Assembly: GCF_028021195.1 (NCBI RefSeq)
Contig: NZ_CP115668.1
Coordinates: 1,984,001-2,048,000 of the forward strand
Direction: 5' to 3'
DNA from: Cutibacterium equinum
GTDB lineage: Bacteria > Actinomycetota > Actinomycetes > Propionibacteriales > Propionibacteriaceae
DNA: 64,000 nt
Below, piece by piece: positions 10,776 to 54,270 of the stretch. Numbering within the stretch: position 1 is the stretch's first letter; every line of letters begins with the position of its first letter. The notes under the pieces were generated by a model. That model was given only the letters and a program-made list of their open reading frames with translations. It was not told the DNA's origin and made no database searches. The translations under genes and the position numbers were made by a program.

Positions 10776-10836
10776 TGCGCCAGTTGTGCCCCACCTGCGC
10801 CAAAAAATCTGGCGCAGGTGGGGCACAACTGGCGCA
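10776..10836. repeat. Hairpin element: 27-bp perfect inverted repeat, 7-nt loop
   Basis: The left arm (10776-10802) begins TGCGCCAGTTGTGCCCCACC and ends TGCGCCA. The right arm (10810-10836) is its exact reverse complement, and the loop is AAAAATC. The same architecture recurs at 54210-54270 with two compensated base-pair changes. A third single-arm copy is at 10883-10910. Confidence 0.95.
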
Positions 10837-10882
10837 ACTAGGTCAGTGCAGCAGCCGAGGAATGGATGGGCTGCATAGTTTC

Positions 10883-10910
10883 GGCGCAGGTGGGGCACAA
10901 CTGGCGCAGG
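10883..10910. repeat. Single copy of the hairpin-arm motif
   Basis: This is the right-arm sequence of the neighbouring hairpin (GGCGCAGGTGGGGCACAACT followed by GGCGCAGG) without a partner arm. It shares the GGGGCAC core of the nearby hairpin rather than the GAGACAC core of the distant locus. Confidence 0.9.
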
Positions 10911-10919
10911 TAATAGGGG

Positions 10920-11050
10920 TCGGGACCGTCTATAGCAGGGTCGGGACCGTCTATCGCGGGTGAGGGTAGTCGGTCGCGGAGTGGGGATGATCTAGTGAGG
11001 ATGATCTATAGCGGGCGAGGGCCGTCGGTCGCGGAGTGGGGACCGTCGGC
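10920..11050. repeat. Degenerate short direct repeats
   Basis: Variants of TCGGGACCGTCTAT, GATGATCTA and CGGTCGCGGAGTGGGGA each recur two or more times in about 130 bases. The array is imperfect and has no clear single period. Confidence 0.6.
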
Positions 11051-11150
11051 ACCGCGACAACGCCCCCATCGTCCTCAGTCTCAGCCCGGACGCGCCCTCA
11101 CCCCGTGGCCCCGTCCCCAGGCTCGTCCCGGAGCTGGCCGTGGGACAAAG

Positions 11151-11179
11151 ATCGCGGCGGACACGTGGTCCGCCGCGAT
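11151..11179 (-). terminator. Terminator of purB
   Basis: A 12-bp perfect stem (ATCGCGGCGGAC ... GTCCGCCGCGAT) with a 5-nt loop is followed on the minus strand by CTTTGT. It lies 36 bases after the purB stop. Confidence 0.65.
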
Positions 11180-11214
11180 GCACCGTGTGACCCGAGATCA
11201 CCCAATCCGCACGG

Positions 11215-12648
11215 TCACAGCACCAGCCCAGGCAGGTAGCTGGCAGCCTCCGGGTACTCCCGGACGATGTCCTCAACCTTGGCGCACAGCGCCTCGACCT
11301 GATCCTGAGCCCCACCGGTGAGATCCAACGGCGAGGAGACGAGACCGCGCAACTGCTCCTTGGTCAGCGGGATCCGCGGGTCGGCAGCCAGACGGGCGAA
11401 CAGATCGTTCTCGGTCGTGCCGGTCTCACGCATCTCCAGGGCGAGGGCCACGGAGTGTTCCTTGATGGCCTCGTGGGCGTCCTCACGACCGACTCCGGCG
11501 CGCACGCACGCCATGAGGACCTTTGTCGTCGTCAGGAAGGGCAGGTAACGCTCCAACTCGGCCTCGATGACGGCCGGGAAGGCCCCGAACTCGCCCAGGA
11601 TCGTCAGGAAGGTCTCGAAGGCCCCGTCGATGGCATAGAAGGAATCCGGCAGGGCGACACGGCGCACCACAGAGCAGGAGACGTCCCCCTCATTCCACTG
11701 CACACCAGCCAGACCCGTGGCCATGGTGAGGTACCCGCGCAACACGACGAGGAAGCCGTTGACTCGCTCACACGAGCGGGCATTCATCTTGTGCGGCATG
11801 GCCGAGGACCCGACCTGGCCAGGCTTGAACCCCTCAGTGACGAGCTCGTTGCCAGCCATGAGGCGGATCGACGTCGCCAGGTTCGACGGCCCCGACAGCA
11901 CCTGTACCAGGGTCGAGATGACCTCAAAGTCCAAGGACCTGGGGTAGATCTGGCCGGTCGAGGTCAGTACCTGGTTGAAGCCGAGGTGATCGGCGACCCG
12001 ACGCTCCAGCTCGTCAAGCTTGGAGGCGTCCCCGCCGAGCAGGTCGAGCATGTCCTGAGAGGTTCCCATCGGCCCCTTGATCCCGCGAGCCGGGTAGCGC
12101 TCGATGAGCTCGTTGACGTGATCCCACGCCACCAGCATCTCGTCGATGGTGGTCGCAAACCTCTTGCCCAGGGTCGTCACCTGGGCGGCAACGTTGTGGG
12201 ACCGACCAGCGATCGGCTGATCCGAGTACTGGGCAGCCAGTCGGGCCAGCTGGTTGAGGGTGGCGACCATCCTCTCGCGCACCAGCTTCAGCGACTCCAG
12301 CACCTGCATCTGTTCGATGTTCTCGGTGAGGTCGCGGCTCGTCATGCCCTTGTGGATGTGCTCATGGCCGGCCAGGGCGTTGAACTCCTCGATCCGCGCC
12401 TTGACGTCGTGCCGTGTGATGGCCTCACGCTCGGCGATCGAGTCCAGGTCGACCTTGTCGAGAACAGCCTGGTAGTCGGCCAGCACCTGTTCGGGATCGT
12501 CGCCTCCGAAACTGACGCCGAGGTCCGCCTGGGCCTCGAGGACGGCCAGCCACAGCCTGCGCTCGGCACGGATCTTGTTCTCCGGGGTCCAGATGGAACG
12601 CATCTGCGAGGACGCGTAACGGGTGGCAAGGATGTTGGGAACGCTCAT
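11215..12648 (-). CDS. purB: Adenylosuccinate lyase
   Basis: The 477-residue fumarase/aspartase-superfamily enzyme splits SAICAR to AICAR and adenylosuccinate to AMP, releasing fumarate. The signature loop is GSSAMPHKMNARSCERVNGF, with the mobile catalytic Ser; HNVAAQVTTLGKR and KGMTSRDLTENIEQ are further active-site segments. Its ATG overlaps the purD stop by four bases (ATGA), so the two are translationally coupled. The length is near that of the actinobacterial long form. A strong hairpin ends the unit. Confidence 0.95.
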   Translation of the reverse strand: MSVPNILATRYASSQMRSIWTPENKIRAERRLWLAVLEAQADLGVSFGGDDPEQVLADYQAVLDKVDLDSIAEREAITRHDVKARIEEFNALAGHEHIHKGMTSRDLTENIEQMQVLESLKLVRERMVATLNQLARLAAQYSDQPIAGRSHNVAAQVTTLGKRFATTIDEMLVAWDHVNELIERYPARGIKGPMGTSQDMLDLLGGDASKLDELERRVADHLGFNQVLTSTGQIYPRSLDFEVISTLVQVLSGPSNLATSIRLMAGNELVTEGFKPGQVGSSAMPHKMNARSCERVNGFLVVLRGYLTMATGLAGVQWNEGDVSCSVVRRVALPDSFYAIDGAFETFLTILGEFGAFPAVIEAELERYLPFLTTTKVLMACVRAGVGREDAHEAIKEHSVALALEMRETGTTENDLFARLAADPRIPLTKEQLRGLVSSPLDLTGGAQDQVEALCAKVEDIVREYPEAASYLPGLVL

Positions 12649-13967
12649 GAGTTCTCCCCGTCGGTCGGGTTACTGGGATGGGTTGCGGGTTGGGGCGTGA
12701 GTCCGTCGGTCATCTCGTCATCGGCCTCGAGCTCAGCTGCGCCAAGGGCAATGTCAGTACGGTGGAATCCGCCGGCCACCTCGAGCTGGTCGACCCTGGT
12801 GTAGGCATCGGTTCGGGCTCCGGCAAGGGTCTCCCCGTGACCGAGCACGACGAGGACACGGCCACCGCTGGTGACCAGCCCGTCGCCCTCGATGCGAGTA
12901 CCGGCGTGCAGGACGTCCTCGTCGTCGACCGGGGCAACGACTCGGCGTCCCTTCACCGGGGATGCAGGATACCCCTCACTCGCCATGACGACACCGACAG
13001 CCGCGCCACGACGGAAGCGCAGCCCATCGACTCCCGACAGGTCACCACGGGCGGCCGCCAGCATGATCTGCGCCAGCGGGGACTCCACCATGCTGAGCAG
13101 CGGCTCGGTTTCCGGATCACCGAAACGGACGTTGAACTCCACAACCTTCGGACCCTCCGACGTCAGGGCCAGGCCCACGTACAGCAGGCCCATGAACGGG
13201 GTGCCGCGATCATTCATGGCTGCCAGCGTCGGGGAAATCACCGTCGTCGCCACCGTCTCGACGAGGTCGTCGGGCGCCCAGGGCAGCGGTGTGTATGCGC
13301 CCATACCGCCGGTATTGGGGCCGACCCCGCCATCGCCGACCCGCTTGAAGTCCTGGGCCGGTTGCATGGGAAGGGCGCGCTGCCCGTCGCAGATCGCGAA
13401 GAGGCTCACCTCGGGGCCGTCGAGATACTCCTCGACGACCACCTGGTGGCCAGCCTTGAGGCAATGCTCGGCATGAGCCAGGGCCTCGGCACGGTCATCG
13501 GTGACGACAACTCCCTTGCCGCCTGCGAGCCCGTCATCCTTGACGACGTGGGGAGCTGCGAATTCGTCGAGGGCTGCCCCCACCGAGTCAAGGTCACCGC
13601 AGGATCGAGAGGCGGCAGTGGGAACCCCCGCAGCAGCCATGACCTCCTTGGCGAAAGCCTTCGAGCCCTCCAGTCGAGCAGCTTCGGCGCTGGGACCGAA
13701 GCAATCGATCCCGGCGTCACGAAGGGCGTCCGCCACCCCCGCAACCAGTGGGGCCTCCGGGCCGACGACGACAAGATCGGCGCCGACGTCGCGGGCAAGG
13801 GCGACGACGGCGCCCTTGTCGCATGGGTCGATCGGATGGTTCGTGGCGAAGGATGCCGTCCCGGGGTTACCGGGAGCGACATGGACGGCAGCAACCTGTG
13901 GGTCACGGCGGCACGCCAGGGCGAGGGCGTGCTCGCGACCACCAGACCCGAGGACGAGAACAGTCAT
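12645..13967 (-). CDS. purD: Phosphoribosylamine-glycine ligase (GARS)
   Basis: This ATP-grasp enzyme of 440 residues makes glycinamide ribonucleotide from phosphoribosylamine and glycine. The N-terminus MTVLVLGSGGREHALALACR is the standard start, which is why ATG 13967 is chosen over a GTG five codons upstream. HVVKDDGLAGGKGVVV is the ATP-grasp lid, GGVGPNTGGMGAYTPLPW the substrate-binding segment and EFNVRFGDPETEPLL the metal-binding segment. The C-terminus has a non-conserved tail. The stop overlaps purB by four bases. No strong ribosome site is visible. Confidence 0.95.
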   Translation of the reverse strand: MTVLVLGSGGREHALALACRRDPQVAAVHVAPGNPGTASFATNHPIDPCDKGAVVALARDVGADLVVVGPEAPLVAGVADALRDAGIDCFGPSAEAARLEGSKAFAKEVMAAAGVPTAASRSCGDLDSVGAALDEFAAPHVVKDDGLAGGKGVVVTDDRAEALAHAEHCLKAGHQVVVEEYLDGPEVSLFAICDGQRALPMQPAQDFKRVGDGGVGPNTGGMGAYTPLPWAPDDLVETVATTVISPTLAAMNDRGTPFMGLLYVGLALTSEGPKVVEFNVRFGDPETEPLLSMVESPLAQIMLAAARGDLSGVDGLRFRRGAAVGVVMASEGYPASPVKGRRVVAPVDDEDVLHAGTRIEGDGLVTSGGRVLVVLGHGETLAGARTDAYTRVDQLEVAGGFHRTDIALGAAELEADDEMTDGLTPQPATHPSNPTDGENS

Positions 13968-14055
13968 GCTGGACACAACCACAAGCGTAGAGGGTCACCA
14001 CGACAGGTTGACGCCGCCACCGCCCCGGCACGCAAGACGGACGCAGAACCGCCCG

Positions 14056-14709
14056 TCAGTGGCCCAGAGCGTTGAGCATGTCCTCGAACTCCTCGACAGG
14101 GCCGAGGCCATCGTCGAGGTCGGTGTGAGAGGACTGGCCTGGGACGGGTTCCTCGTTGCCGCTGTCACCCTCGTCGCGTCCCGGAGTGTTGGTCCCACCG
14201 ACGAGCAGTCGGGTGAAGGCCCGGGCTGCCCGGTCGATGCGTCGGTCCAAGGCTGACGGGTTTCCCCAGTCCTCCGTGGCGGCGAACACCGACACGGGCG
14301 AGACGAGGGCGTGGTGGTAGTGCAGTGAGGCGACGACGTCGCGGTCCATGACGAGGCTGTGACGGGCTGTCCCTCCGGTGGCCCCCACGAGCATCGGCTT
14401 ACCCTCCAAGACCCCCTCATCGAGGACTTCGAAGAACAGATGGAACACCGCGGCGGCATGAGCGTTGTACACCGGGGTCACGACCACCAGCCCGTCAGCA
14501 CCGCTGATGGATTCCTGAGCCTTCGTGACGCTGGCTGATCGCACCCCGGTGAATTCGGCGTTGAGAAGGTCGTGGCCCAGATCACGCACCTCAATGACCT
14601 CAACCTCAGCATCGGAAACCTGCTGAGTGATCTGGGAGACCAGACGGTCAACCAGCATTCGGGTCGAGGAGGGCTGTCCCAGTCCTGCACTGATGGCAAC
14701 AATCTTCAT
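14056..14709 (-). CDS. NADPH-dependent FMN reductase (CE1759-like)
   Basis: The 217-residue flavodoxin-fold protein starts MKIVAISAGLGQPSSTRMLV, the phosphate-binding loop of the FMN reductase family, and has DGLVVVTPVYNAHAAAVFH as the flavin and NAD contact. The gene begins one base after the stop of the luciferase-like monooxygenase, so the two form a functional pair: this enzyme probably supplies reduced FMN. The last 45 residues are acidic and poorly conserved. The substrate of the partner, and hence the pathway, is unknown. Confidence 0.85.
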   Translation of the reverse strand: MKIVAISAGLGQPSSTRMLVDRLVSQITQQVSDAEVEVIEVRDLGHDLLNAEFTGVRSASVTKAQESISGADGLVVVTPVYNAHAAAVFHLFFEVLDEGVLEGKPMLVGATGGTARHSLVMDRDVVASLHYHHALVSPVSVFAATEDWGNPSALDRRIDRAARAFTRLLVGGTNTPGRDEGDSGNEEPVPGQSSHTDLDDGLGPVEEFEDMLNALGH

Positions 14710-14710
14710 G

Positions 14711-15907
14711 TCAGTTCCTGTCCGAGGTTCCCGTCACCGCGTCGCCAGGGGTGAAACGGTACTCGTCGCTGTGCTTGCCCTGAGCCGCCACGAGGGACTC
14801 ATGGGTGGGGGCATCCGGGATGTCAGCGGGGCGACCCTCCGCGAACCCCTTGCGCAGCTCCGGAAGGATCTCGCCCAGCATGTCCATCTGCTCCAGCACC
14901 GTCTTGAGCGGCAGACCCGCGTGATCGATGAGGAACAGCTGACGCTGGTAGTGACCGACGTGATCCTTGAACGACAACGTCCTCTCGAGGACCTGCTGGG
15001 GCGACCCGACGGTCAACGGGGTGGCCGAGGTGAACTCCTCCAGGCTGGGGCCGTGGCCGTAGACCGGGGCGTTGTCGAAGTAGGGACGGAACTCGCGCAC
15101 GGCATCCTGGGAGTTCTTTCGCATGAAGAACTGGCCTCCCAGTCCGACGATGGCGTCTTCAGGACGGCCGTGACCGTAGTGGGCGTAGCGAGCCCGGTAT
15201 CGCTCGATCATGCGCTGCGTGTGGTCCATCGTCCAGAAAATGTTGTTGTGGAAGAACCCGTCACCGTAGTAGGCGGCCTGTTCGGGGATCTCTGGGGAAC
15301 GAATTGAGCCGTGCCAGACGAAGGGGGCCACGTCGTCGAGGGGACGCGGGGTCGACGTGAACGACTGCAACGGAGTGCGGAAGTTCCCGCTCCAGTTCAC
15401 GATGTCGTTGCGCCACAGCTGATGGAGCAGGTCGTAGTTTTCCAGGGTGAGCTTGATGCCGTCGCGGATGTCACGGCCAAACCAGGGGTAGACCGGGCCG
15501 GTGTTGCCCCTGCCCAGCATGAGATCGACACGCCCGTCAGCGAGGTGCTGGGCATAGGCGTAGTCCTCGGCCAGACGCACCGGGTCGTTGGTGGTGATGA
15601 GGGTGGTCGCCGTCGACAGGATGATCCGCTTGGTCATCGCAGCGAGGTGGGCCATGAGGATCGGCGGATTGGCGGGAGCCACGAATGGCGGGTTGTGATG
15701 CTCACCGGTGGCGAAGACGTCCAAGCCGATGTCCTCGGCCTTGCGGGCAATGGTGACGGTGTTCTTGATGCGTTCGTGCTCGGTGGGGGTCTGGCCTGTC
15801 GTGGGATCGGTCGTCACGTCCCCGATGCTGAAGACGCCAATCTGGACGGGAACCCGATCGGCAGGGGCGGGGGTGTGTTCGGCGTGAGGCTGGGCGTCTG
15901 TGCTCAT
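14711..15907 (-). CDS. Luciferase-like flavin-dependent monooxygenase (CE1758-like)
   Basis: The 398-residue LLM-class oxidoreductase uses reduced FMN and oxygen. It shows the TIM-barrel features of bacterial luciferases: VQIGVFSIGDV at the first strand, EDIGLDVFATGEHHNPPF, LSTATTLITTNDPVRLAEDYA and RVDLMLGRGNTGPVYPWFG. The N-terminal 20 residues and the last 40 are low-complexity tails. It is the first gene of a two-gene unit with the FMN reductase. Such pairs are common in corynebacteria and propionibacteria, and their physiological substrate is not known to me. Confidence 0.88.
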   Translation of the reverse strand: MSTDAQPHAEHTPAPADRVPVQIGVFSIGDVTTDPTTGQTPTEHERIKNTVTIARKAEDIGLDVFATGEHHNPPFVAPANPPILMAHLAAMTKRIILSTATTLITTNDPVRLAEDYAYAQHLADGRVDLMLGRGNTGPVYPWFGRDIRDGIKLTLENYDLLHQLWRNDIVNWSGNFRTPLQSFTSTPRPLDDVAPFVWHGSIRSPEIPEQAAYYGDGFFHNNIFWTMDHTQRMIERYRARYAHYGHGRPEDAIVGLGGQFFMRKNSQDAVREFRPYFDNAPVYGHGPSLEEFTSATPLTVGSPQQVLERTLSFKDHVGHYQRQLFLIDHAGLPLKTVLEQMDMLGEILPELRKGFAEGRPADIPDAPTHESLVAAQGKHSDEYRFTPGDAVTGTSDRN

Positions 15908-15993
15908 GAGGGAACTCCTATCGACTCAGGTAGTTGACATGACACCTACCATAACGTCACATCTCCCCCGTGTGTTCCCGTCAACGGGAAAAA

Positions 15994-17361
<1,368 letters not shown>

Positions 17362-17449
17362 TTACGTGGTCGCTACGACAATGACGGCGCCGGACCGGGC
17401 AGCGGAAGGTTTCCCCACGTCGGGTGGGCGTGCGTCGTCATGACGTCGA

Positions 17450-18373
17450 TCAGGCCTCGGCCGCCCCGCCCTCACTCGTGGTCCGTTCATCGACATCGTC
17501 ACCCTCAGAGGGCAGGACCGGGATCTCCAGCAGAATGAGACTTGCCCCTTCGAGAGGCAGACGCGAGGACAGCGGCCCGAAGTGCGGATCGCTGCGGTGC
17601 CCGTCAAAATTGACGCGCTTGTAACCGGCATCCTCGGCCCAACTGATGACTGCCGACATTGCCGAGGCGACGGCAGCGTCGCCGTCGGGGGTGTCGGCCT
17701 GCACCGTCTCTGCGACCACGGTTGGGTTCTCATCGACGAAGACGAAGGCGACCGCTGCCGGCTGGCCATCGATGAGGGCGACTCGGGTAGCTTCGGCGTC
17801 GAGGTCCTCAAGTTCCTGACGCAGGGCCTCGTGGGCGGCCTCACTGTCATCAACCGGTGACCAGGACTCGTGCATCCACACGTAGATCTGTTCCCACAGC
17901 GTCTCGAGCACCCCAGGGGCCAGCGTGGCACCTGAAATGGCCCCACCCGGACCCAGACTCACCTCTGCGAGGGACTCAATGGCACGGCCGAAATGGCGGC
18001 GCGGCAGCTCGAAAGGCGAGCAGTACGCATAGACCTCACCACCCAGGGACATGATGAACTTCTCGGCGTCGGAACCGGCGATGGCCTTGGTCGCCAGGGG
18101 ACGATCCACCCGCTGCTGGATCTGGCGCACCAGCCGGGTACCGATCAGACGCCCTCGGGAGTCGGGATGGACCTCGACGTCAATGAATCGACGGGTGCGG
18201 TGAACCACCGCCAACCACGACACTGCGTACCCAACAATTCGGTTCTCGTGGAGAGCCACCCTGGCGACGACGTCCGGACGGTCGATGAGATCAATGAGGG
18301 CGCCAGGTTCTCCGAAGGTGATCACCGTGACGTCTTCGGGCCGCATGTCGCGGAAAACAACGTGCTCGCTCAT
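17450..18373 (-). CDS. Tandem GNAT-family acetyltransferase-like protein
   Basis: This 307-residue protein appears to contain two GNAT-like halves. The first half has VHRTRRFIDVEVHPDSRGRLIGTRLVRQ (the acetyl-CoA binding R/G-rich loop near residues 65-92). The second has ATRVALIDGQPAAVAFVFVDENP and a final WAEDAGYKRVNFDGH. The second acetyl-CoA loop is degenerate, so only the N-terminal half may be catalytic. The substrate is unknown. AGGAGTG before ATG 18373 fixes the start. It is divergent from the FadR-type regulator. Confidence 0.75.
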   Translation of the reverse strand: MSEHVVFRDMRPEDVTVITFGEPGALIDLIDRPDVVARVALHENRIVGYAVSWLAVVHRTRRFIDVEVHPDSRGRLIGTRLVRQIQQRVDRPLATKAIAGSDAEKFIMSLGGEVYAYCSPFELPRRHFGRAIESLAEVSLGPGGAISGATLAPGVLETLWEQIYVWMHESWSPVDDSEAAHEALRQELEDLDAEATRVALIDGQPAAVAFVFVDENPTVVAETVQADTPDGDAAVASAMSAVISWAEDAGYKRVNFDGHRSDPHFGPLSSRLPLEGASLILLEIPVLPSEGDDVDERTTSEGGAAEA

Positions 18374-18502
18374 GTCGCACTCCTGAGTCTGGGGACGCCT
18401 TTGACGTCGCTGTGTCTCCATTCTTCCGCCTTTTGCGCGCTCGCGTCGACCAAGGGGTTAATCCGGTATCGCGATCATGGCGATCATGAGATGATTAACG
18501 GC

Positions 18503-19225
18503 ATGTCAGATGAGAAGGACGCGGTCCATCTAGCCGATACCCTCAATCCGGCGGCACAACGGATGTTCGAGTGGATTCTGTCCTCGGATCTGACTCCGGG
18601 AGATCCGATTCCGATTGAGCAGGATCTGGCGACCCAGTTTGGAATGGCGCGGGGCACGGTCCGTGAAGCAGTGCGTGAGCTGCGGGCCTTGGGGATCATC
18701 GAGGTGCGTCGCGGTCTGGGAACATACCTGTCAACAGCCTCCGCGTCGACGATTCGTCCGGGGCTCGTCTACCGCAGCGTCAAGCAGATCAGTCATGGCG
18801 ATGACGGCACGAAGGATTTCACGGGACTACGCGAGATGGTGGAGGTGCGTGCGCTCATGGAGTGCTCGCTCATCGCCGAGGTCACCGGTCACATCAGCGC
18901 CGAAACTGGACATGCGCTCCATGCCCTTGCGGCGCGAATGGACGACCCGAACGACTCTGCCGCCGCCGATCGTCACTTTCACCGGCTGCTGTACGCGGAG
19001 ACGGACAATCAACTCGCTCGCGAGCTCATCGACGTGTTCTGGGACTCTCTCAACCTTGCCGGTCTCAGACTGCCGCCGACCAACACCGTCAAGGCAACTC
19101 GTGCCGCCCACGACCTCATTGCGGACTGTGTGGTCGGCAACGACCCGCAGGCCAGTCGCGACGCCATGTGGGACCACTTTGACGCCATCCGGGAGCGGCT
19201 TGGCAGAGCCGCCAACCAGCAGTGA
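18503..19225 (+). CDS. FadR-subfamily GntR regulator, likely controlling the sialic acid operon
   Basis: The protein has about 240 residues. A GntR winged helix (PGDPIPIEQDLATQFGMARG through GIIEVRRGLGTYL, about residues 28-75) is followed by an FCD effector domain whose metal/ligand histidines are in ADRHFHRLLYAET and AHDLIAD. It is convergent with nanE and about 9 kb from the first gene of the nan-like operon, whose promoter carries a 22-bp palindrome of the kind dimeric GntR proteins bind; control of that operon is inference. An ATG at 18491 is an equally possible start; neither has a strong ribosome site. Confidence 0.85.
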   Translation: MSDEKDAVHLADTLNPAAQRMFEWILSSDLTPGDPIPIEQDLATQFGMARGTVREAVRELRALGIIEVRRGLGTYLSTASASTIRPGLVYRSVKQISHGDDGTKDFTGLREMVEVRALMECSLIAEVTGHISAETGHALHALAARMDDPNDSAAADRHFHRLLYAETDNQLARELIDVFWDSLNLAGLRLPPTNTVKATRAAHDLIADCVVGNDPQASRDAMWDHFDAIRERLGRAANQQ

Positions 19226-19261
19226 CACACCCACAGCGACATGTTTCGAGCATGGCGAGTA

Positions 19262-19284
19262 GGGCCCGCCTGATGGCGAGCCCC
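19262..19284. terminator. Weak hairpin between convergent genes
   Basis: GGGC and GCC segments pair with GGC and GCCC across a short loop, with internal mismatches. It lies between the regulator gene and nanE. Confidence 0.3.
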
Positions 19285-19297
19285 CTGCGATGATCAC

Positions 19298-19987
19298 TCA
19301 CGACAGAGCGGCGCTGAACCACCCCGTGATCGACGTCGGATGGGTGATCGCGGTCCCCACGACGACGGCATGGGCGCCCAGATCCATCGCCCGGCGAGCT
19401 TGGTCCGGGGTGTGGACACGACCCTCAGCAATGACAGGACGACCACCGTCGAGCTTGTTCACGAGGGTCTCGATGACCTCGTAGTCGGGCCCGTCAGTCT
19501 TGGGACGTTCCCCGGTGTAGCCCGACAGCGTGGTGCCGATGAGATCAGCCCCCGCCTCAGCGGCGAACAAGCCGTCGTCAACCGAACCACAATCGGCCAT
19601 GACGGCGACGTCGTACTCCTCTTTGAGGGCCTTGATCGTCTCAGCCAATGTCAGTCCATCAGCGCGATCACGCCGGGTGCCGTCGAGGGCGACGATGTCA
19701 GCCCCGGCAGCTGCCACGCAGCGGGCGTGACGCAGAGTTGGGGTGATGTAGATGCCCTCGTCGCCCTCTTTCCAGATGCCGACCACCGGGACACTCACCC
19801 GCCCCTTGACAGCAGAGACGTCGGAGAGCCCCTGGGCGCGCACCGCCACCGCTCCCCCGGCCTCGACGGCCGCGGCCATCTGGGCCATCGTCTCGGGGTG
19901 ACGCAGCGGTTCTCCTGGGTAAGCCTGGCATGAAACCACAAGTCCTCCAGCCATGGAGGCGATGATCGTGTCGGTGAATGCGCTCAT
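19298..19987 (-). CDS. nanE: N-acetylmannosamine-6-phosphate 2-epimerase
   Basis: This 229-residue TIM-barrel epimerase converts ManNAc-6-P to GlcNAc-6-P in sialic acid catabolism. The diagnostic segments are GGLVVSCQAYPGEPL at the N-terminus, VPVVGIWKEGDEGIYITPT, VALDGTRRDR, VMADCGSVDDGLFAAEAGAD, IGTTLSGYT and PVIAEGRVHTPDQARRA. It is the last gene of the leftward operon, 33 bases after the NanA-like lyase, and has a GAGGAGG ribosome site. No ManNAc kinase is encoded next to it. Confidence 0.95.
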   Translation of the reverse strand: MSAFTDTIIASMAGGLVVSCQAYPGEPLRHPETMAQMAAAVEAGGAVAVRAQGLSDVSAVKGRVSVPVVGIWKEGDEGIYITPTLRHARCVAAAGADIVALDGTRRDRADGLTLAETIKALKEEYDVAVMADCGSVDDGLFAAEAGADLIGTTLSGYTGERPKTDGPDYEVIETLVNKLDGGRPVIAEGRVHTPDQARRAMDLGAHAVVVGTAITHPTSITGWFSAALS

Positions 19988-20020
19988 GGTTGAATCCTCC
20001 TCAGATCAAGGTCGCGCCAT

Positions 20021-20941: not shown

Positions 20942-20982
20942 GGTGTTGTCCTTTGTGGGGGTTGTGAGTGGTGTGGTGGGTG

Positions 20983-44273: not shown

Positions 44274-44409
44274 CACACCCGCACCGACTGTTCGCCCTCT
44301 CGTATCCCCGCGTTCACAAGGCCGTGGGACCAACGTCTCGCCCGTCTGGTCAGATCAATGGCGGGGCTGTGACGCAGTGTCCAGCCATGAGTGTCGAGGA
44401 GCCATATAC

Positions 44410-46641: not shown

Positions 46642-46660
46642 TACCGGAACGTCACTGACG

Positions 46661-46702
46661 CGTGGGGGGTTGGGCTGCACACTCGCGGCCCAACCCCCCA
46701 CG
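46661..46702. terminator. Bidirectional 15-bp hairpin between convergent genes
   Basis: CGTGGGGGGTTGGGC (46661-46675) and its exact complement (46688-46702) enclose a 12-nt loop between the phosphoesterase gene and clpB. There is no T run, so this may be a rho-independent terminator of the GC-rich type. Confidence 0.65.
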
Positions 46703-46725
46703 GGTTCATGGAGTCGGCTGACCCC

Positions 46726-49299
46726 TCATCGGCTCGTCAGGCCGTCGGAGTCCGTGGCGACATCGAAGGTGATCGTGTCCCCATCGTGCACCTGGCCGGA
46801 GAGCACCTTGCGGGCCAACTGGTCCTCGATGGTGGTCTGGATGAGTCGACGCAGCGGTCGCGCGCCGTAGACGGGGTCGAATCCAGTCATCGCGAGCCAG
46901 TCCTTGCCGGCGTCAGTCACTGAGACGGTGATCCTGCGCTCGCCCAGCCGGGCGTTGAGCTTGGCCAGGTTGGTGTCGACGATCCGCGTGAGATCGGCGG
47001 TCGTCAACGGATCGAACATGACGATGTCGTCGAGCCGATTGAGGAACTCTGGACGGAACGCTTGGCGCACCGCACCCATGACGGCGTCGTGCTTGGCCTT
47101 GTCGTCGAGAGTCGCCTCCGAGAGGAACTGCGAACCCAGATTGCTCGTGAGCACCAGGATCGTGTTCCGGAAGTCGACGGTGCGACCCTGGCCGTCAGTG
47201 AGCCGCCCGTCGTCAAGGACCTGCAGCAAGATGTTGAAGACATCCGGGTGGGCCTTCTCAACCTCATCGAGCAGGATGACCGAGTAAGGACGGCGCCGCA
47301 CAGCCTCGGTGAGCTGACCGCCCTCCTCGTATCCGACATAACCCGGAGGGGCACCGACCAGACGCGAGACGGAGTGCTTCTCCATGTACTCGCTCATATC
47401 GATACGCACCATCGCGGTCTCGTCGTCGAAGAGGAACTCAGCCAGGGACTTGGCCAGCTCGGTCTTGCCAACGCCGGTCGGCCCCAGAAAGAGGAAGGAT
47501 CCGGTCGGACGATTCGGGTCCGAGATGCCCGCCCGGGAGCGGCGCACCGCATCCGAGACCGTCGCGACGGCACGATCCTGACCAATGAGGCGTTCGTGGA
47601 GGCGTTGTTCCATGTGAAGCAGCTTTTCCTGCTCGCCCTGCATCATCCTGCCGACGGGGATACCCGTCCACGAGGACACGACCTCGGCAATGTCGGAACT
47701 GCCGACCTCCTCGGGGACCATCCGCGGGGTCTGTTCCTTGGCCTGTGCAGCCTCCTCCATCTCCTTCTCCAGGCCGGGGATCTGGCCGTAGAGAATCTCG
47801 GAAGCCTTCCCGAAGTCGCCCTCGCGCTGGAACTTCTCAGCAGTGGTGCGCAGCTGATCAATGCGGGATTTCAGCTCGCCAACCTCGTTGAGGCCGGCCT
47901 TTTCGGCCTCCCAGCGAGTCTCGAGTCCTCGCAGGGTCTCCTCCTTGTCAGCCATCTCGGCGCGCAACCTCTCGAGGCGCTGCTTGCTGGCCGGGTCCTC
48001 CTCCTTCTCGACGGCGAAGATCTCCATCTTCATGCGGTCAACCTCGCGGCGCAGGGTGTCGATCTCCTCCGGGGAGGAGTCGATTTCCATGCGCAGCCGC
48101 GACGCAGCCTCGTCAATGAGGTCAATGGCCTTGTCAGGTAGCTGTCGGGCAGTGATGTACCGGTTCGACAGACTGGCCGCAGCGACGAGGGCACCGTCGG
48201 TGATGCGCACCTTGTGGTGGGCCTCGTAACGCTCCCGCAGACCACGCAGGATGGCGATGGTGTCCTCCACCGAGGGTTCACCGACGAAGACCTGCTGGAA
48301 ACGACGCTCGAGGGCCGGGTCCTTCTCGATGTGCTCGCGGTACTCGTCAAGGGTGGTGGCGCCGATCATGCGCAGTTCGCCACGAGCCAGCATCGGCTTG
48401 AGCATATTGCCCGCATCCATCGCTCCTTCGCCCGACGCTCCGGCACCGACGACGGTGTGCAGCTCGTCGATGAAGGTGATGATCTGCCCTTCGGCCTCCT
48501 TGATCTCGTTGAGGACAGCCTTGAGGCGCTCCTCGAACTCGCCGCGGTATTTGGCGCCCGCAACCATTGACGACAGATCCAGGGAGACGACGCGGCGTCC
48601 CTTGAGGGAGTCGGGGACGTCACCGGCGACGACACGTTGAGCCAGCCCCTCGACGACGGCTGTCTTGCCGACGCCGGGTTCGCCGATGAGAACCGGGTTG
48701 TTCTTGGTGCGGCGTGCCAGCACCTGGACGACGCGGCGAATCTCCTGGTCGCGGCCAATGACCGGGTCGAGCTTGCCAGCGCGGGCACGCTCGGTGAGGT
48801 CGACGGAGTACTTGGCCAACGCCGACTGGCCGCCCTCGGACCCCTCCGAGGTGACGCGACGATCGCCACGTCCCTCGTTGAAGGCGGCCGCCAGGGAATC
48901 GGGTTTGAGACCGAGATTCGCCAAACCACTCTGGACGTCAGATGGAACCGCCGTCAGGGAGATGAGGAGATGCTCGGTGGCGACGAAGGAGTCTCCCATG
49001 GCCTGGGCGCGATTCTGGGCGTCGGCGATGACCCGGGCAAAAGCGCCTGAAAGCTGCGGCTGGGCGACCGATGCCCCCGAACTCGACGGCAGGGCGCGCA
49101 TGGCGGTGGTGGCAACGGCGTCGACTTGTTGCGGATCAATTCCCAAACCAGCCACGAGTGGGCCGACGGTGTTGTCCGCGATCGTGAAAAGTGCGTGAAG
49201 AAGATGCGAGGGCTCCACGGACGGGTTCCCGTGGGCCAACGCGTGCCGGGTGGCGGCGGTGACCGCGTCACGGCTCATCGTGGTGAGATTGGTGTCCAT
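46726..49299 (-). CDS. clpB: Chaperone protein ClpB (disaggregase)
   Basis: The 857-residue hexameric AAA+ chaperone pulls polypeptides out of aggregates together with DnaK. It has an N-domain (to about 145), NBD1 with Walker [14 protein letters not shown], the M-domain coiled coil ([20 protein letters not shown] onward) and NBD2 with Walker [14 protein letters not shown] and pore loop [13 protein letters not shown]. All parts are complete. The start at 49299 follows GAGGC. Two HspR-type inverted repeats lie 17-88 bases upstream, so heat-shock control by HspR is expected, though hspR is not in the window. Confidence 0.97.
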
Positions 49300-49315
49300 A
49301 ACCTGCCTCGCTGAA

Positions 49316-49336
49316 GTTGAGTAGCTATGACTCAAG
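49316..49336. promoter_or_regulatory. HAIR element (HspR site) upstream of clpB, proximal copy
   Basis: GTTGAGT-N7-ACTCAAG matches the HspR inverted-repeat consensus CTTGAGT-N7-ACTCAAG in 13 of 14 fixed positions, 17 bases upstream of clpB. Confidence 0.85.
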
Positions 49337-49366
49337 TATGAACCTTCGTGAGCCACAGTCAAGTGG

Positions 49367-49387
49367 GTTGAGTCTCAGTGGCTCAAC
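49367..49387. promoter_or_regulatory. HAIR element (HspR site) upstream of clpB, distal copy
   Basis: GTTGAGT-N7-GCTCAAC keeps the same spacing as the proximal copy with three deviations from consensus. The centres of the two copies are 51 bases apart, about five helical turns. Confidence 0.7.
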
Positions 49388-49452
49388 TTTGCTGTGAGCG
49401 GATGCAACCTCGTCAATCCCCCGGTATTCCGGCGTCAGGGGCGACAACACGA

Positions 49453-49482
49453 GCGACGCCGCACCCGAAGGCGCGGCGTCGC
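49453..49482 (-). terminator. Hairpin after the sugar ABC transporter operon
   Basis: A 10-bp stem (GCGACGCCGC ... GCGGCGTCGC) with a 10-nt loop lies 48 bases after the stop of the binding protein gene. On the minus strand it is followed by TCGTGTTGT, a weak U tract. Confidence 0.55.
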
Positions 49483-49529
49483 CGGTTGTCATCGGATGAT
49501 CGACGGTCTGGTCAACCGCCGCATCGCGA

Positions 49530-50894
49530 TCACAGGTGAGGCTTCACCTGGGTGTTGTAGATGTTCTCGAGGGTGGAATGCAGCTTGGTCATGGCCGGCT
49601 TCAGCTCAGCGCCCTGCTGGATGACCGAGGCGACGGCCTTGGCGATCTCCTGGTCGCCACCGGGCAGGAAGACGCGGGCGTAATCCTGCGGACGGGTGAC
49701 GTCGAGCTGCTTGATGGCCTGACCGATGAGCGGGTTCTCCTTGAGCAGGGCCGAGGTGTCGGCGTCGTTGCACACCGGCATGTAACCAGTGGCAGCGGAG
49801 AAATCGACAGTGTTCTGAGCATTGGTGAGGAAGCCGATGAACTTGGCGGCAGCCAGCTGCTTTTCCTTGCTGGAGCGAGAGCAGATCGCCACGCCGGCGC
49901 CACCGGTCGGGCACACCGGCTGCTTGGCGGCCGGGCCACCGGGAAGGAACCCGACGCCCACCTCGAACTTGTCACCGACGGCCTTCTGAACGCCGACCAG
50001 CGAGCCAGTGGAACCAATGGTGGCCGAGCAGGCTCCAGCGGCCATGTCGTCAGTGGACTCATTGGAGGACACTCCAGCCCACTTGTCCTTGAGGACGGCG
50101 TCGCGGACGACCGTCAGGGCCTCGATGGACTTGTCGGAGTCACAGGTGATCTCGAAGGAGTCCTTCTTGGACCAGCCGCCGCCGTAGCCCCACAGCATGT
50201 TCTGCAGGGTCCAGCCGGCGTAGTCGGTGACCGAGGGGAACTGGTAGGCGTGCTGGGCGCCGGTCTTGGCGTCCTGCAGCTTCTTGGCCCAGGTCTTCCA
50301 CTCGTCCCAGGTCTTGGGGGCGCGGTCAGGCAGACCTGCAGCCTTGAAGTGGTTCTTGTTGTAGTAGAACAGCGGCGTCGAGCGTGAGAACGGCAGGGCG
50401 TACAGGCTGTCCTTGTAGCGGTAATCGTCGATGAGGCCCTTGCGATAGGCCGAGACGTCGACCTTGGCAGCCTTGAGCAGGTCGTCCAGCGGAGCGATGG
50501 CGTCCTGCATGTAGTAGCGGAACCACCACACATCAGAGCCGATGACGACGTCAGGGGTGTCCTTGCCGGTCAGAGCGGTCTGGAACTTCTGCGCCACCTC
50601 CTCGTAGGAGGAGCCGGCCGGGACGATCTTGACCGAAATACCCTCCTTGGCCTTGAAGTCGTCGCAGATCTTCTTGGTGACGTCACCAGATCCGCCGGGG
50701 TTGTTGGTCCAGAAGGTGATCTCGCTGGCGGGCTTGACGCCGGAGTAATCAACCTTTTCGGCAGCCTTGGAGCTTCCCTTGTCGGAGCCGCTGACGGCAG
50801 AGGGGCCCGAGCATGCAGCCAGGCCGAGGGTTCCGGCCCCGAGGGCCGCCATGGTGAGCAGCCGCCGACGGCTGATCGAGTTGATGTCGGACAC
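49530..50894 (-). CDS. Sugar ABC transporter substrate-binding lipoprotein (UgpB-like)
   Basis: This 454-residue family 1 receptor has a twin-arginine-type signal (SRRRLLTMAALGAGTLGL) with lipobox LAAC. EITFWTNNPGGSGDVTKKI, DVVIGSDVWWFRYYMQ and LYALPFSRSTPLFYYNKNHF are typical of sugar and glycerol-phosphate receptors. It is the last gene of a three-gene unit, after two permeases. No ATPase is encoded here, so a shared MsmK-type ATPase elsewhere is likely. The exact ligand is unknown. Confidence 0.9.
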   Translation of the reverse strand: MSDINSISRRRLLTMAALGAGTLGLAACSGPSAVSGSDKGSSKAAEKVDYSGVKPASEITFWTNNPGGSGDVTKKICDDFKAKEGISVKIVPAGSSYEEVAQKFQTALTGKDTPDVVIGSDVWWFRYYMQDAIAPLDDLLKAAKVDVSAYRKGLIDDYRYKDSLYALPFSRSTPLFYYNKNHFKAAGLPDRAPKTWDEWKTWAKKLQDAKTGAQHAYQFPSVTDYAGWTLQNMLWGYGGGWSKKDSFEITCDSDKSIEALTVVRDAVLKDKWAGVSSNESTDDMAAGACSATIGSTGSLVGVQKAVGDKFEVGVGFLPGGPAAKQPVCPTGGAGVAICSRSSKEKQLAAAKFIGFLTNAQNTVDFSAATGYMPVCNDADTSALLKENPLIGQAIKQLDVTRPQDYARVFLPGGDQEIAKAVASVIQQGAELKPAMTKLHSTLENIYNTQVKPHL

Positions 50895-50992
50895 GATGAT
50901 GTTCTCCTTGTGAATCGAGTCGAGGGCGACACGGAATGGATGGAAATTCGCGCCGGAAGAATGCCGGCAGCGTCACGGGGTCAGGAGGCAGG

Positions 50993-51892
50993 TCACTTGA
51001 CCGCGCCCTGGGTGAGCCCGGCGACGAGGTATCGCTGGAGCAGGACGAAGATGATGAGCACAGGCAGGATGACGAAGACGGCACCGGCCATGAGGACCGG
51101 GTAGACACCGGCATCGGAGTCAACGGCCTGCAGGGCGGTCAGACCCACCGGGAGCACCATCCGAGAGGTGTCGGAGGTGATGACCAACGGCCAGATGTAG
51201 TTGTTCCACTCATCGACGATCGTCACCAGGGCGACCGTGGCGATGGCGGGAGCTGACATCGGAATGACCATGCGAAACAGTCGAGTCATGTGGCCCGCAC
51301 CGTCGACCTCCGCAGCCTCCATGACCTCACCTGGCAGGGAGAGGAAGTGCTGTCTCAACAGGAACGTCCCGAAGGCCGTCCCCAGACCGGGAAGGATGAT
51401 GCCCCAGTAGGTGTTGACTCCCCCCAGCTCGGAGATGAGGACATAGTTCGGCACCAGGGAGACCTGGGCGGGAACCATGAGGGCGACGAGAACCAGGATG
51501 AAGATGATCTTGCGTCCGGGAAAGTGCAGGAAGGCGAAGGCATAGGCGCTGGAGCAGGCCAGTACGAGCTTGACCGTCGCGCCGATCACGGTGACGATCA
51601 CGGTGTTGACGAACAACTGCGGGAAGTCGATCGCCTGGGATGCCTGCCGGTAGGCGTCGAAGCTCCAGTGGTGGGGCCACCAGACGACATTCTGGCCGAC
51701 GATCTCGGAGGGTGTCTTGAACGATCCCAGCACCATCCACAGCAGTGGCAGGACGACGATGAGCGCGGCCAGAATCATCGGCAGATAGCCGGTGAAGGCC
51801 TTGGAGAGGCCAGACTCGGCTCCCACGACCGACTCGTCGACCTTGCGAGATCGACGGATGTCGGCGCGGCGAACGGCTGCATTCAGGCTCAT
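50993..51892 (-). CDS. Sugar ABC transporter permease (UgpE/MalG-like)
   Basis: The 299-residue permease has six hydrophobic helices. VMEAAEVDGAGHMTRLFRMVIPM is the EAA loop with the conserved Gly, and LLWMVLGSFKT is the usual start of the MalG type. It pairs with the next-door MalF-type permease. Its ATG overlaps that gene's stop by four bases (ATGA). Confidence 0.93.
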   Translation of the reverse strand: MSLNAAVRRADIRRSRKVDESVVGAESGLSKAFTGYLPMILAALIVVLPLLWMVLGSFKTPSEIVGQNVVWWPHHWSFDAYRQASQAIDFPQLFVNTVIVTVIGATVKLVLACSSAYAFAFLHFPGRKIIFILVLVALMVPAQVSLVPNYVLISELGGVNTYWGIILPGLGTAFGTFLLRQHFLSLPGEVMEAAEVDGAGHMTRLFRMVIPMSAPAIATVALVTIVDEWNNYIWPLVITSDTSRMVLPVGLTALQAVDSDAGVYPVLMAGAVFVILPVLIIFVLLQRYLVAGLTQGAVK

Positions 51893-52914
51893 GAGTAGTG
51901 CACCCGCCTTTCGAGGAAGCGCATCTGGATGACGGTGAGGATGAGCAGGATGACGACGAGGACCGTCGACTGAGCGGCCGAGTAACCGGCGCGGTTGTAC
52001 GTCCCGAAGGCCTGGATGTACGAGGAGTACATGAGGGTCGAGGTGCCCTGCCCCAACGGGGTCATGATCTTGATGATGTCGAAGGCCTGCAGGGAGGACA
52101 GCATCGTCGTCAGGGTGAGGAAGAAGGTTGCCGGGGACAGCAGCGGCCAGACCACCGAGTGGAAGGTGCGGCGACGAGATGCGCCGTCCAGGGCTGCTGC
52201 CTCGAGCAGGTCGCGTGGCACTCCCTGGAGCGCGGCCAGGTAGATGACGGCACAGTAGCCGAGGTTCTTCCAGACGTAGACGATGATGACCATCACGAGG
52301 GCCAGGTGCGGGTTGTTGAACCACTGCGGCACCGGCAGGTGCATTCCTCGCAGGATCGCCGAGAGGACGCCGGTGACGGGGTCGAAGATGAACATCCACA
52401 CCATGCCGATGCCCACACCGGACAGGACGTAGGGGGCGAAGACGACGGCTCGGGCGATATTGCGTCCCACCAGTTGACGGTTGAGGACCACGGCCAACCC
52501 CAGGCCGATGAACAACGACAACCCGACCGTCGCGACGGTGAATATGAGGGTCGTCGTCAAGACGGTGCCGGCGTCGCGAGTGAAGAACTCCACGTAGTTC
52601 TGAAAACCGACCCAGGTGGCATTGGTCGAGCCAAGAGTCCAGTCAAGGGCCGAGTAGTAGATGTTGAGGAAGAATGGCCGGTAAACGAACAGCGCAATGA
52701 GAATCGCATTCGGGGCCACGAAGGCCAGGAAGAGCAGGGCCTCCCGTCGCATTCTGCGGTTCGGGCGGCGCTTGGGCAGTCTTTGCGTGGCCGTGGACTC
52801 AGCTGGTGACGTGGTCACAGACCTGGGCTGCGGCGCTGAATCCGGTGACGGCGACACCACCACCCCAGACGACGTCGCGCCCGCCGGCATGGCTTCGTCG
52901 ACTCGGATGTTCAC
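51889..52914 (-). CDS. Sugar ABC transporter permease (UgpA/MalF-like)
   Basis: The 341-residue permease has a long polar N-terminal extension of about 60 residues (Pro/Ser-rich then Arg/Lys-rich), followed by six helices beginning ALLFLAFVAPNAILIALFVY. The EAA loop is DLLEAAALDGASRRRTFHSVVWP. It is the first gene of the three-gene importer and overlaps the second permease by four bases. The 244 bases upstream hold its likely promoter. Confidence 0.92.
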   Translation of the reverse strand: MNIRVDEAMPAGATSSGVVVSPSPDSAPQPRSVTTSPAESTATQRLPKRRPNRRMRREALLFLAFVAPNAILIALFVYRPFFLNIYYSALDWTLGSTNATWVGFQNYVEFFTRDAGTVLTTTLIFTVATVGLSLFIGLGLAVVLNRQLVGRNIARAVVFAPYVLSGVGIGMVWMFIFDPVTGVLSAILRGMHLPVPQWFNNPHLALVMVIIVYVWKNLGYCAVIYLAALQGVPRDLLEAAALDGASRRRTFHSVVWPLLSPATFFLTLTTMLSSLQAFDIIKIMTPLGQGTSTLMYSSYIQAFGTYNRAGYSAAQSTVLVVILLILTVIQMRFLERRVHYS

Positions 52915-53109
52915 CGGTCCTCCTCAGGGTCTCATTGCCGCTTTCTGGCAGGCGGCACCGGGAAGGACGGTAGAAAAGCGAGATGTCGTCATCTGGATGG
53001 TCAGATAGCAACACCGAAACCCCAAGATGAACTCTTGTACCACATTGTGGAAAAGGTCACGAATACGGCATCCTTACGAACCATAAAGGGGTTTCCATGT
53101 GGTGCTACA

Positions 53110-53139
53110 ACACCGTTCAATGATCGTCGAGAACGGTGT
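53110..53139 (-). terminator. Hairpin after the HAD phosphatase gene
   Basis: A 9-bp stem (ACACCGTTC ... GAACGGTGT) with a 12-nt loop starts about 20 bases past the phosphatase stop on the minus strand. Confidence 0.5.
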
Positions 53140-53158
53140 CGTCAATGCGTGAACCGGG

Positions 53159-53908
53159 TCAGTCAGCCAATAACTTTTCGAGTTTGTCAGCCGTATCTTC
53201 CCAGTCAGTGACGGCCACGCAGGGGATGCCCATCGCCTTGACCGGATAGTCGTTGCCGTGCTCGTCGAGACGGTCACCGTAGAAAAGGACATCCTCCTTG
53301 GCCAGGTTCGTCATCTCCAGCAGCTTGCCCATCCCGAAGGACTTGTCACGACCGACGCGAGTGATGTCGACAGAGGTGGACCCGCCGGCACGCACTTCGA
53401 GGTCAGGAAGTTTCGCCGCGACGGCCTCGCGCAGCGTGAGCTTCTTCTGGCCACTGGGGTCCCATGCCTTCTTGGCGTCAACAGGAGCCTGCTGACCCAG
53501 GGCGGAGAAGGTGATCTGAGATTCACGGTCCTCCAACACCGGACCCCAGGTGTGCTCCTCCCAGAATCCCAGGTCCCGGGCGCAGGTCTCGACGGCCTCG
53601 GTGGCACGGGACTTCTCGTCGTCGGTCAAGGCCTCGATGTAAATGCGCTGCCATTGACCGTCAACATAGCGGTAGTACTGGGTGCCACAGGCGGGCAGCA
53701 GGTGCAGCCGATCGACGTGGGATGCGTTGACGTCGTCCAGAGCCTCGATGACCTGGGTATGGAACTGGCCAAACTGGCCGCCGGAGATGACGCAGACGCT
53801 GACACGGTCCAAGAGCCGCGAAAGGATGCGCGCCATGGGTTCGGGCAGACGGGACTTCGAGGGGGCCAGGGTGTCGTCAAGATCGAATGCGACGAGTTTG
53901 GGGATCAC
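53159..53908 (-). CDS. HAD-superfamily hydrolase (phosphomannomutase/Cof-like group)
   Basis: The 249-residue protein has HAD motif I VAFDLDDTLAPSK near the start, motif II VISGGQF, Lys/Arg motif III in the middle (VGRDKSFGMGKLLEM) and motif IV VLFYGDRLDEHGNDYPVKAMG. The cap region and the DLTGGSTS-like segment resemble type IIB enzymes related to eukaryotic phosphomannomutase and Cof phosphatases. The substrate is unknown but a sugar phosphate is likely. The GTG at 53908 is a choice; no strong ribosome site is present. It lies after a repeat-rich region. Confidence 0.8.
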   Translation of the reverse strand: MIPKLVAFDLDDTLAPSKSRLPEPMARILSRLLDRVSVCVISGGQFGQFHTQVIEALDDVNASHVDRLHLLPACGTQYYRYVDGQWQRIYIEALTDDEKSRATEAVETCARDLGFWEEHTWGPVLEDRESQITFSALGQQAPVDAKKAWDPSGQKKLTLREAVAAKLPDLEVRAGGSTSVDITRVGRDKSFGMGKLLEMTNLAKEDVLFYGDRLDEHGNDYPVKAMGIPCVAVTDWEDTADKLEKLLAD

Positions 53909-54061
53909 GGTTGCACTGTACAAGGCGGCTGGGTTCGTGCACCAATGATGACCCCGTTTTCAAGGCTGTTTGCTGCCAATGGCGGGCCCGGGATTCGGGA
54001 GGGTTCCGCAGTGTTTCGGGGTGTTGGTGTTTCGGGGTGTTTCGGGCGCGGAGGGGGTGGT

Positions 54062-54236
54062 CCTGCGCCAGTTGTGTCCCACCTGCGCCACTCAACCAGT
54101 CCCCCGGCCACCCAAACTCCCCTACCCCCGCCTACCTGCGCCAGTTGTGTCCCACCTGCGCCACCCAACCAGTCCCCCGGCCACCCAAACTCCCCTACCC
54201 CCGCCTACCTGCGCCAGTTGTGTCTCACCTGCGCCA
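54062..54236. repeat. 73-bp tandem repeat, about 2.4 copies
   Basis: The unit starts at 54062, 54135 and 54208. Each begins CCTGCGCCAGTTGTGT and the first two continue into an AC-rich segment (CAACCAGTCCCCCGGCCACC). The third copy stops after the hairpin-arm motif and leads into the inverted repeat. Confidence 0.92.
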
Positions 54237-54270
54237 AAAAAGTTGGCGCAGGTGAGACACAACTGGCGCA
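54210..54270. repeat. Second hairpin element: 27-bp perfect inverted repeat, 7-nt loop
   Basis: The left arm (54210-54236) is TGCGCCAGTTGTGTCTCACC plus TGCGCCA and the right arm (54244-54270) is its exact complement; the loop is AAAAAGT. Compared with the hairpin at 10776-10836, two stem pairs are changed from C-G to T-A on both sides. The sequence just after the right arm (ACTGGATCAG here, ACTAGGTCAG there) is also similar. Confidence 0.95.

Follow-up and report, generated by a model that had tools for sequence, protein, structure and literature searches.

Two intergenic loci in the chromosome of Cutibacterium equinum carry hairpins in which a change on one arm is accompanied by the matching change on the other, and the question which they raise is whether such paired changes reflect a fold that matters or arise in some other way. 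The window which we analysed is a stretch of 64,000 nucleotides (contig NZ_CP115668.1 of assembly GCF_028021195.1, positions 1,984,001-2,048,000) within a genome, here called G000, consisting of one contig of 2,510,028 bases. The explanation which we favour, and to which we would give close to an even chance, is that the hairpins are old sites between genes, composed of a conserved, probably protein-bound word, TGCGCCA, and that their facing arms are kept identical by template switching. The compensated pairs would then be mainly a product of copying and not proof of a selected RNA fold or cruciform.

An earlier note on this DNA, made from the sequence alone, had described two inverted repeats with 27-bp arms and 7-nt loops, and both were found where it placed them. 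In hairpin 1, positions 10776-10802 pair with 10810-10836 (27 bp, 100% complementary, 7-nt loop), and in hairpin 2, positions 54210-54236 pair with 54244-54270 (27 bp, 7-nt loop; scored by the inverted-repeat program as 28 bp with a 5-nt loop). Both C-G to T-A differences between the two stems are compensated on the opposite arm, and the single arms beside hairpin 2 carry TCCC, as the note had also reported. These single arms (54064-54090 and 54137-54163) each show one difference from either arm of the hairpin. The worry that the loci could be assembly duplicates of one site can be dismissed, as they lie on one contig and have different flanking genes. Hairpin 1 folds at -40.9 kcal/mol (z = -11.7) and hairpin 2 at -40.5 kcal/mol (z = -12.1), with 0 of 200 shuffles as good in either case. 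The parts of the two loci are as follows.

10773..10775, + strand: outer triplet ACC ahead of the first heptamer of hairpin 1, unpaired with the other end (10837-10839, ACT)
10776..10802, + strand: left arm of hairpin 1, TGCGCCA - 13-nt core - TGCGCCA
10803..10809, no strand: loop of hairpin 1, A-rich
10810..10836, - strand: right arm of hairpin 1, exact reverse complement of the left arm
10883..10908, - strand: single arm near hairpin 1, in the direction of the adjoining right arm and identical to it over 26 bases
54064..54090, + strand: single arm, TCCC variant, within a 73-bp tandem duplication (54062-54207)
54137..54163, + strand: single arm, TCCC variant
54210..54236, + strand: left arm of hairpin 2, TCTC variant
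54237..54243, no strand: loop of hairpin 2, A-rich
54244..54270, - strand: right arm of hairpin 2, exact reverse complement of the left arm

The family is larger than the two copies previously noted. Genome-wide we found 12 hairpins, at positions 157538, 1530812, 1738195, 1853043, 1854260, 1869999, 1994776 (window 10776), 2038210 (window 54210), 2055995, 2197700, 2258715 and 2269775. A pattern search allowing up to 3 mismatches found 38 arms, 24 of them in hairpins and 14 single, while the backward control found none. All 14 single arms are oriented like the neighbouring hairpin arm, and arm-to-arm spacings of 72-73 bp occur at 5 of the 8 hairpin sides which bear single arms.

Within the hairpins the arms match each other far more closely than their membership of one family would give. 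Across the 12 stems 4 of 312 cells are mismatched, compared to a permuted mean of 22.1, and none of 100,000 re-pairings was as low. Ten hairpins have identical arms, the exceptions being 1854260 (3 mismatches) and 2269775 (1 mismatch). When the 10 distinct rows were counted as a structure, 99.6% of cells were paired and 6 pairs had changed on both sides, which was beyond 500 of 500 shuffles; when the partner was slid by 1-3 columns, just 25-45% of cells paired. The earlier note's proposal of covariation or arm-to-arm conversion is therefore upheld by both the arm matching and the two-sided changes of the 12 hairpins. In the 7 hairpins with adjoining single arms the mean difference was 0.57 between the two arms and 1.14 between a hairpin arm and a single arm, a modest contrast, since 2055995, 1994776 and one single arm of 2258715 show no difference at all. 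At flank positions 4-15 there were 100 mismatches in 144 compared to 93.4, showing that the matching ends at the stem.

Several of the differences come as blocks. Both arms of 1738195 read CTGT over stem positions 17-20, whereas CACC stands there in both arms of 9 of the 11 other hairpins; of the remaining two, 1853043 has CACT in both arms and 2269775 has CACC in one and CATC in the other. The three mismatches of 1854260 all sit in one arm, and the variant block which they form, GGGGCATAAC, was found elsewhere only in the single arm at 1852909, 1.4 kb away and in the opposite direction. To judge from this common block, it looks like an exchange between arms. A relative, G006, has a hairpin in the gap orthologous to that of 1738195, with flanks identical at 127 of 151 and 115 of 144 positions; its core is 10 nt long in both arms and pairs at 10 of 10 positions, with 3 heptamer mismatches, so that the two hairpins differ by a mirrored change of length.

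Each arm consists of TGCGCCA, a 13-nt core (GTTGTGYCYCACC) and TGCGCC[A], with the two words 20 bp apart, and facing arms are separated by 7-8 mostly A/T bases. The inner word ends in A in 30 of the 38 arms. In the heptamer columns (7 of the outer word and 6 of the inner) 0 of 494 cells were changed and 0 of 13 columns were variable over the 38 arms, against 49 of 494 cells and 7 of 13 columns in the core (Fisher's test on columns: p = 0.005). The seven-letter word is under constraint and the core under weaker constraint. The heptamer context is A[CG][CT]TGCGCC[AG], and the triplets outside the arms are mostly A[CG][CT]; 8 of the 12 hairpins have ACC at one end and either AGC or AGT at the opposite end. 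Taken as pairs, these triplets gave 17 mismatches compared to a permuted 12.3 (a count not exceeded in 19,948 of 20,000 permutations), so they are anti-matched if anything, and since they are unlike, the element tends to have a direction despite its symmetric arms.

We then looked for the layout in relatives. Among 198 genomes of the family the hairpin pattern had matches in 48, with many only in G000 (37) and in G004 (13), a related Cutibacterium metagenome-assembled genome (MAG); the others had 1-3 matches each, about the level of the backward control. A wider search of contigs, which may omit records close to the window's genome, returned 17 stretches, of which 2 are from the Cutibacterium sp. 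MAG and 15 are single matches in other organisms that we took as chance. G004 has the same layout with different cores. In 15 stretches chosen there from pattern hits, with heptamers scored at up to 1 mismatch, the heptamers recur mostly at 19-bp steps; the cores differ among themselves, and TTTGYRCA is present in 15 of 32 arms and at 10 of 15 loci. Some of these arrays run in one direction, namely L153, L156, L158 and L163 with three or four heptamers and L160 with two. The six elements with four heptamers have 0-9 arm mismatches over 25 positions, with values of 5.17 within and 4.67 between elements; 570 of 720 permutations were at or below the observed value, and the covariation score was reached by 299 of 500 shuffles. 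In the G006 copy it is the core that is fully matched, and in the six G004 elements the arms are not matched beyond re-pairing. One G004 element, L159, has a shifted register in which the inner-left heptamer pairs with the right arm. A separate stretch in another relative (L166; G002:C1, approximately 1507800-1507870) has four near-copies of TGGCGCA, of which three are exact; they recur every 21 bp with a spacer that contains TGATC, and the stretch is possibly a distant form of the array.

The age of the sites was assessed from 8 intergenic regions, corresponding to 9 of the 12 hairpins (157538, 1530812 and 2197700 were left out). At 7 of the 8 gaps at least one relative has a variant or relic, and at each gap except that of 1738195 most of the species shown lack the array. 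The gap of window 10776 contains a form with three heptamers in G005 (one of them with a mismatch) and no exact heptamer in five others, among them G004 with two one-mismatch words. In the gap of window 54210, a single arm with one exact heptamer is present in G004, and five others have none. The tuf gap (1869999) contains a bare TGCGCCA-N7-TGGCGCA pair in G004 and no exact heptamer in five others. Between rplN and rpsQ (1853043 and 1854260), G005 has one degenerate arm and seven others are armless, with one exact heptamer inside an apparent gene in G008. The gap of 2258715 contains a truncated hairpin with a TTGTGTCCCC core in G005 and G002 and nothing in three others; the upp gap (2269775) contains direct words only in G004 and no exact heptamer in five others. 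At 2055995, among six species shown, the only traces are a one-mismatch heptamer in G005 and two heptamers in G004, one exact and one with a mismatch, which face apart. At 1738195 the only relative looked at was G006, whose hairpin was found through its match. Old sites with many losses would be the simplest reading of these gaps, and repeated insertion into the same gaps a possible alternative.

Two further observations, both by eye, concern the same regions. The gap orthologous to 2258715 is nearly identical in G002 (L212) and G005 (L214), which are otherwise diverged, suggesting recent transfer. L214, L212 and L227 (G005, G002 and G006) also contain another hairpin family with a common GATGGTGACGTTGCCATC-like middle and differing ends, which resembles a small inverted-repeat element.

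Taken together, these results suggest the following course of events. Within the genus, sites made of TGCGCCA at steps of 19-21 bp, around two helical turns, occur in direct and inverted order, and a protein probably recognises the heptamers in double-stranded form. Recognition of duplex DNA is favoured because the word is constant, the spacing is two turns and the word persists where the arms are unmatched. Where two arms face each other, replication could switch template and copy one arm onto the other, as in quasi-palindrome correction, so that base, multi-base and length changes would appear mirrored on both sides. Tandem duplication of an arm with its flank, the pattern of which can be seen in the repeats themselves, would account for outer single arms in the direction of their neighbour. 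Homogenization of arms through template switching is described in the available text of PMC8604942, and the creation and upkeep of hairpins by the same process in that of PMC8794818. Two features that would be expected of this process are seen here: arms are identical within a locus beyond re-pairing, and differences are mirrored (1738195 and the G006 ortholog).

The alternative which survives best, although we regard it as unlikely, is that the fold itself is selected, either as a DNA cruciform or as an RNA hairpin (e.g. a 3'-end stabiliser or bidirectional terminator), and that the paired changes are compensatory. It would account for the strong covariation among the hairpins of G000, for the extreme folding energies of the window pair and for the G006 ortholog, which has a core of another length and is still fully paired. 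The gene setting also agrees with it. All 12 hairpins are intergenic, 6 of them between converging, 4 between co-directional and 2 between diverging genes by frame calls, and 10 of the 12 are downstream of one neighbour or of both. However, in G004 the arms are not matched beyond re-pairing and some arrays run in one direction, and the heptamers are constant although any base pair would preserve the fold. For the two window hairpins, there is also no T tract of the sort that follows the stem of an intrinsic terminator (0 terminator-like sites around hairpin 1, and 2 around hairpin 2 which are located elsewhere), and the window has 0 matches to Rfam families at gathering thresholds. The earlier note's expectation that the fold matters is thus only partly sustained: strong covariation and three G004 elements which fold better than shuffles speak for it, while the unmatched arms and one-direction arrays of G004 do not. 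Copying is preferred over selection on the fold because of the mirrored blocks, the block shared by 1854260 and 1852909, the limitation of the matching to the stem and the unmatched arms of G004.

It should be noted that several points weigh against template switching at protein-bound sites. The three G004 elements just mentioned fold beyond shuffles with z of -6.1, -4.5 and -2.1 (0, 0 and 4 of 200 as good), the G004 element L161 is perfectly paired, and the G004 arm test includes six elements, which is few; G004 may also be a lineage that lost a constraint on the fold. The three one-sided changes of 1854260 are all of the G-U type on the + strand and so tolerable in an RNA stem, and the matched arms of G000 and of the G006 copy could also result from selection on the fold. 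Arm-to-arm copying alone does not explain why the cores are nearly equal across the G000 loci, for which sequence must have been exchanged between loci or the core itself selected. The constancy of the heptamers is in part a consequence of the search (a pattern with 3-4 mismatches), though mismatches were permitted anywhere. The heptamer-binding protein is inferred, with no candidate identified, and, with one genome per species compared, no act of copying was observed.

A more specific form of the favoured explanation, which we consider rather unlikely, is a genus-specific DNA-binding system in which a protein reads TGCGCCA arrays at a dozen sites or more, the core is a "dialect" that differs by species and template switching equalises the facing arms. 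The dialects would be TTGTGYCYCACC-like in G000 and in the copies of G005, G002 and G006, TTTGYRCA in G004 and shifted at scattered sites. If this were true, equal arms would offer the protein the same sequence twice.

That the hairpins are REPIN-like non-autonomous mobile elements, inserting between genes in either direction, seems to us quite improbable. There are 12 dispersed copies, in both directions if the outer triplets are the guide, and inverted doublets with singlets are found as in REPINs (in the portion of PMC3116915 available). The recurrent 72-73 bp arm spacings could be read in the same way. Some flanks are also alike: 1994776 and 1854260 share 80% identity along 135 bases, a length that takes in the hairpin, the spacer and the single arm (flank score 10.0), and the left flanks of 2055995 and 2038210 score 15.0, compared to a shuffled 1% level of 8.0. 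Overall, 10 of 276 comparisons of outward flanks were at or above that level (approximately 3 expected), and most of the high-scoring flanks contain a single arm or part of one, the exceptions being 2055995L/2038210L and 1994776R/1854260R. Some loci, flank included, may therefore be copies of one another. On the other hand, same-gap variants or relics occur in a relative at 7 of 8 gaps, target duplication was not demonstrated, and there were no matches to phage and plasmid records (E 0.01) or to viral contigs (0). The transposase domain Y1_Tnp, that of RAYT proteins, was found in 0 of 9 genus genomes by a search that was positive in 5 of 14 control genomes. The mobile unit suggested by the earlier note was consequently not confirmed, and the similar bases which it had seen beyond the right arms of the window pair are within chance (flank score 6.5, below the shuffled 1% level).

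It is very improbable that the array is bound by a chromosome-organising or segregation protein for which clustering and inverted order are functionally needed; the two-turn spacing and constancy of the heptamers, the 11 of 12 hairpins inside a 739-kb arc and the periodicity of single-arm spacings would fit, but there is no protein candidate, most relatives shown lack the array at each gap, the arc was chosen post hoc and the origin was not located. The arc in question, picked after seeing the data, runs from 1530812 to 2269775 of 2.51 Mb, and 84 of 200,000 random draws were as tight (251 of 200,000 with two neighbouring hairpins merged). Single-arm spacings gave a mean resultant of 0.7 at 10.4-10.6 bp, for which we claim no significance as several of the 14 spacings are from tandem copies. 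A replichore bias was dropped, as no dnaA was recognised at the contig ends (one frame scanned).

The genes beside the two window hairpins are as follows.

9752..10702, + strand: LysR-type regulator frame, 3' end facing hairpin 1
11215..12648, - strand: lyase frame with an adenylosuccinate lyase C-terminus, 3' end facing hairpin 1
53159..53923, - strand: phosphomannomutase/HAD-like hydrolase frame, with hairpin 2 upstream
54563..55507, - strand: class-I fructose-bisphosphate aldolase-like frame, 3' end facing hairpin 2

Beside hairpin 2, positions 54326-54464 contain a 22-nt repeat (TGCCCCGGGACGCGGCAAGGCA) three times at 58-59-bp steps, which is a second repeat in this gap and unrelated to the arms. 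Around all 12 hairpins we scanned 20 frames, comprising 19 direct neighbours and a DUF559-like frame and leaving out the right neighbour of 2197700; 18 of these matched families, mostly metabolic or housekeeping. Neighbours include tuf, a class II tRNA synthetase, crgA, upp and a folD-like gene, while rplN and rpsQ were identified by eye. The longest frame at 2197700 begins within the hairpin, with an in-frame GTG downstream of it, and 1869999 is crossed by a frame of 71 amino acids. Between rplN and rpsQ, with hairpins 1853043 and 1854260 on either side, lies a frame of 307 amino acids on the minus strand (1853208-1854131; L016 4209-5132) with weak similarity to DUF559 (Pfam below cut-off, E 0.08; NCBIfam none), in place of which the DNA of the eight relatives shown is short or unrelated. 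DUF559 as a general link was dropped, given this weak score and the mostly metabolic or housekeeping neighbours.

It is usual to regard paired stem changes as proof that a fold is functional, and this family may allow two causes of them to be separated, as one species has the layout with matched arms and another has it with arms that do not match. A mirrored length difference, moreover, is not easily produced by stepwise compensation. Confirmation in a strain series would make the family a clean example, in bacteria, of hairpin arms which copying keeps identical. The conserved word TGCGCCA has now been named and its binding protein can be sought.

Lastly, we compared the hairpins to known systems. 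Uptake sequences (DUS/USS) are short words whose inverted pairs act as terminators, often between converging genes. The short word, inverted pairs and frequent placement between converging genes are shared here, but there is no large excess of the heptamer in the window, where it has 32 matches against 12.6 expected in total, 13 of them inside these arrays and 19 elsewhere. The clustered regularly interspaced short palindromic repeats (CRISPR) of Propionibacterium avidum similarly comprise short repeats with spacers of similar length at several loci, but the published repeat, as given in the accessible part of PMC3316620, is unrelated in sequence, the arms here are inverted and dispersed, and cas families had 0 matches among the 20 scanned frames.

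As to a named family, the earlier note knew of none with this layout and we found no earlier description in the literature searched, most subscription papers being outside our reach; the terms "palindrom", "intergenic" and "hairpin" do not occur in the available text of PMC3848858, and in that of PMC3733652 a term search for three actinobacterial names gave none. REPINs and REPs (repetitive extragenic palindromes) are also short intergenic inverted doublets and singlets which form hairpins, and extragenic doublets folding in this way are found here too (for 2197700, assuming the GTG start after the hairpin). REPs are mostly placed between co-directional and converging genes, according to the accessible portions of PMC3733652 and PMC3116915. 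Membership of that family was rejected on transposase, tag and copy number: there was no RAYT found in the 9 genus genomes, no constant unpaired tag (GTAG in 5 and CGTC in 0 of 24 outward flanks, first 6 nt, by eye) and, instead of hundreds of copies, there are 12 hairpins. The arm here is also a direct pair of heptamers around a variable core, with near-perfect arms and mirrored changes. Closer is quasi-palindrome correction, as far as it is described in the consulted sections of PMC8604942 and PMC8794818, which shares the homogenized arms and the mirrored multi-base and length differences limited to the stem; there it is a mutation process at individual sites, whereas in our case it would operate across dispersed loci that have a conserved word in common.

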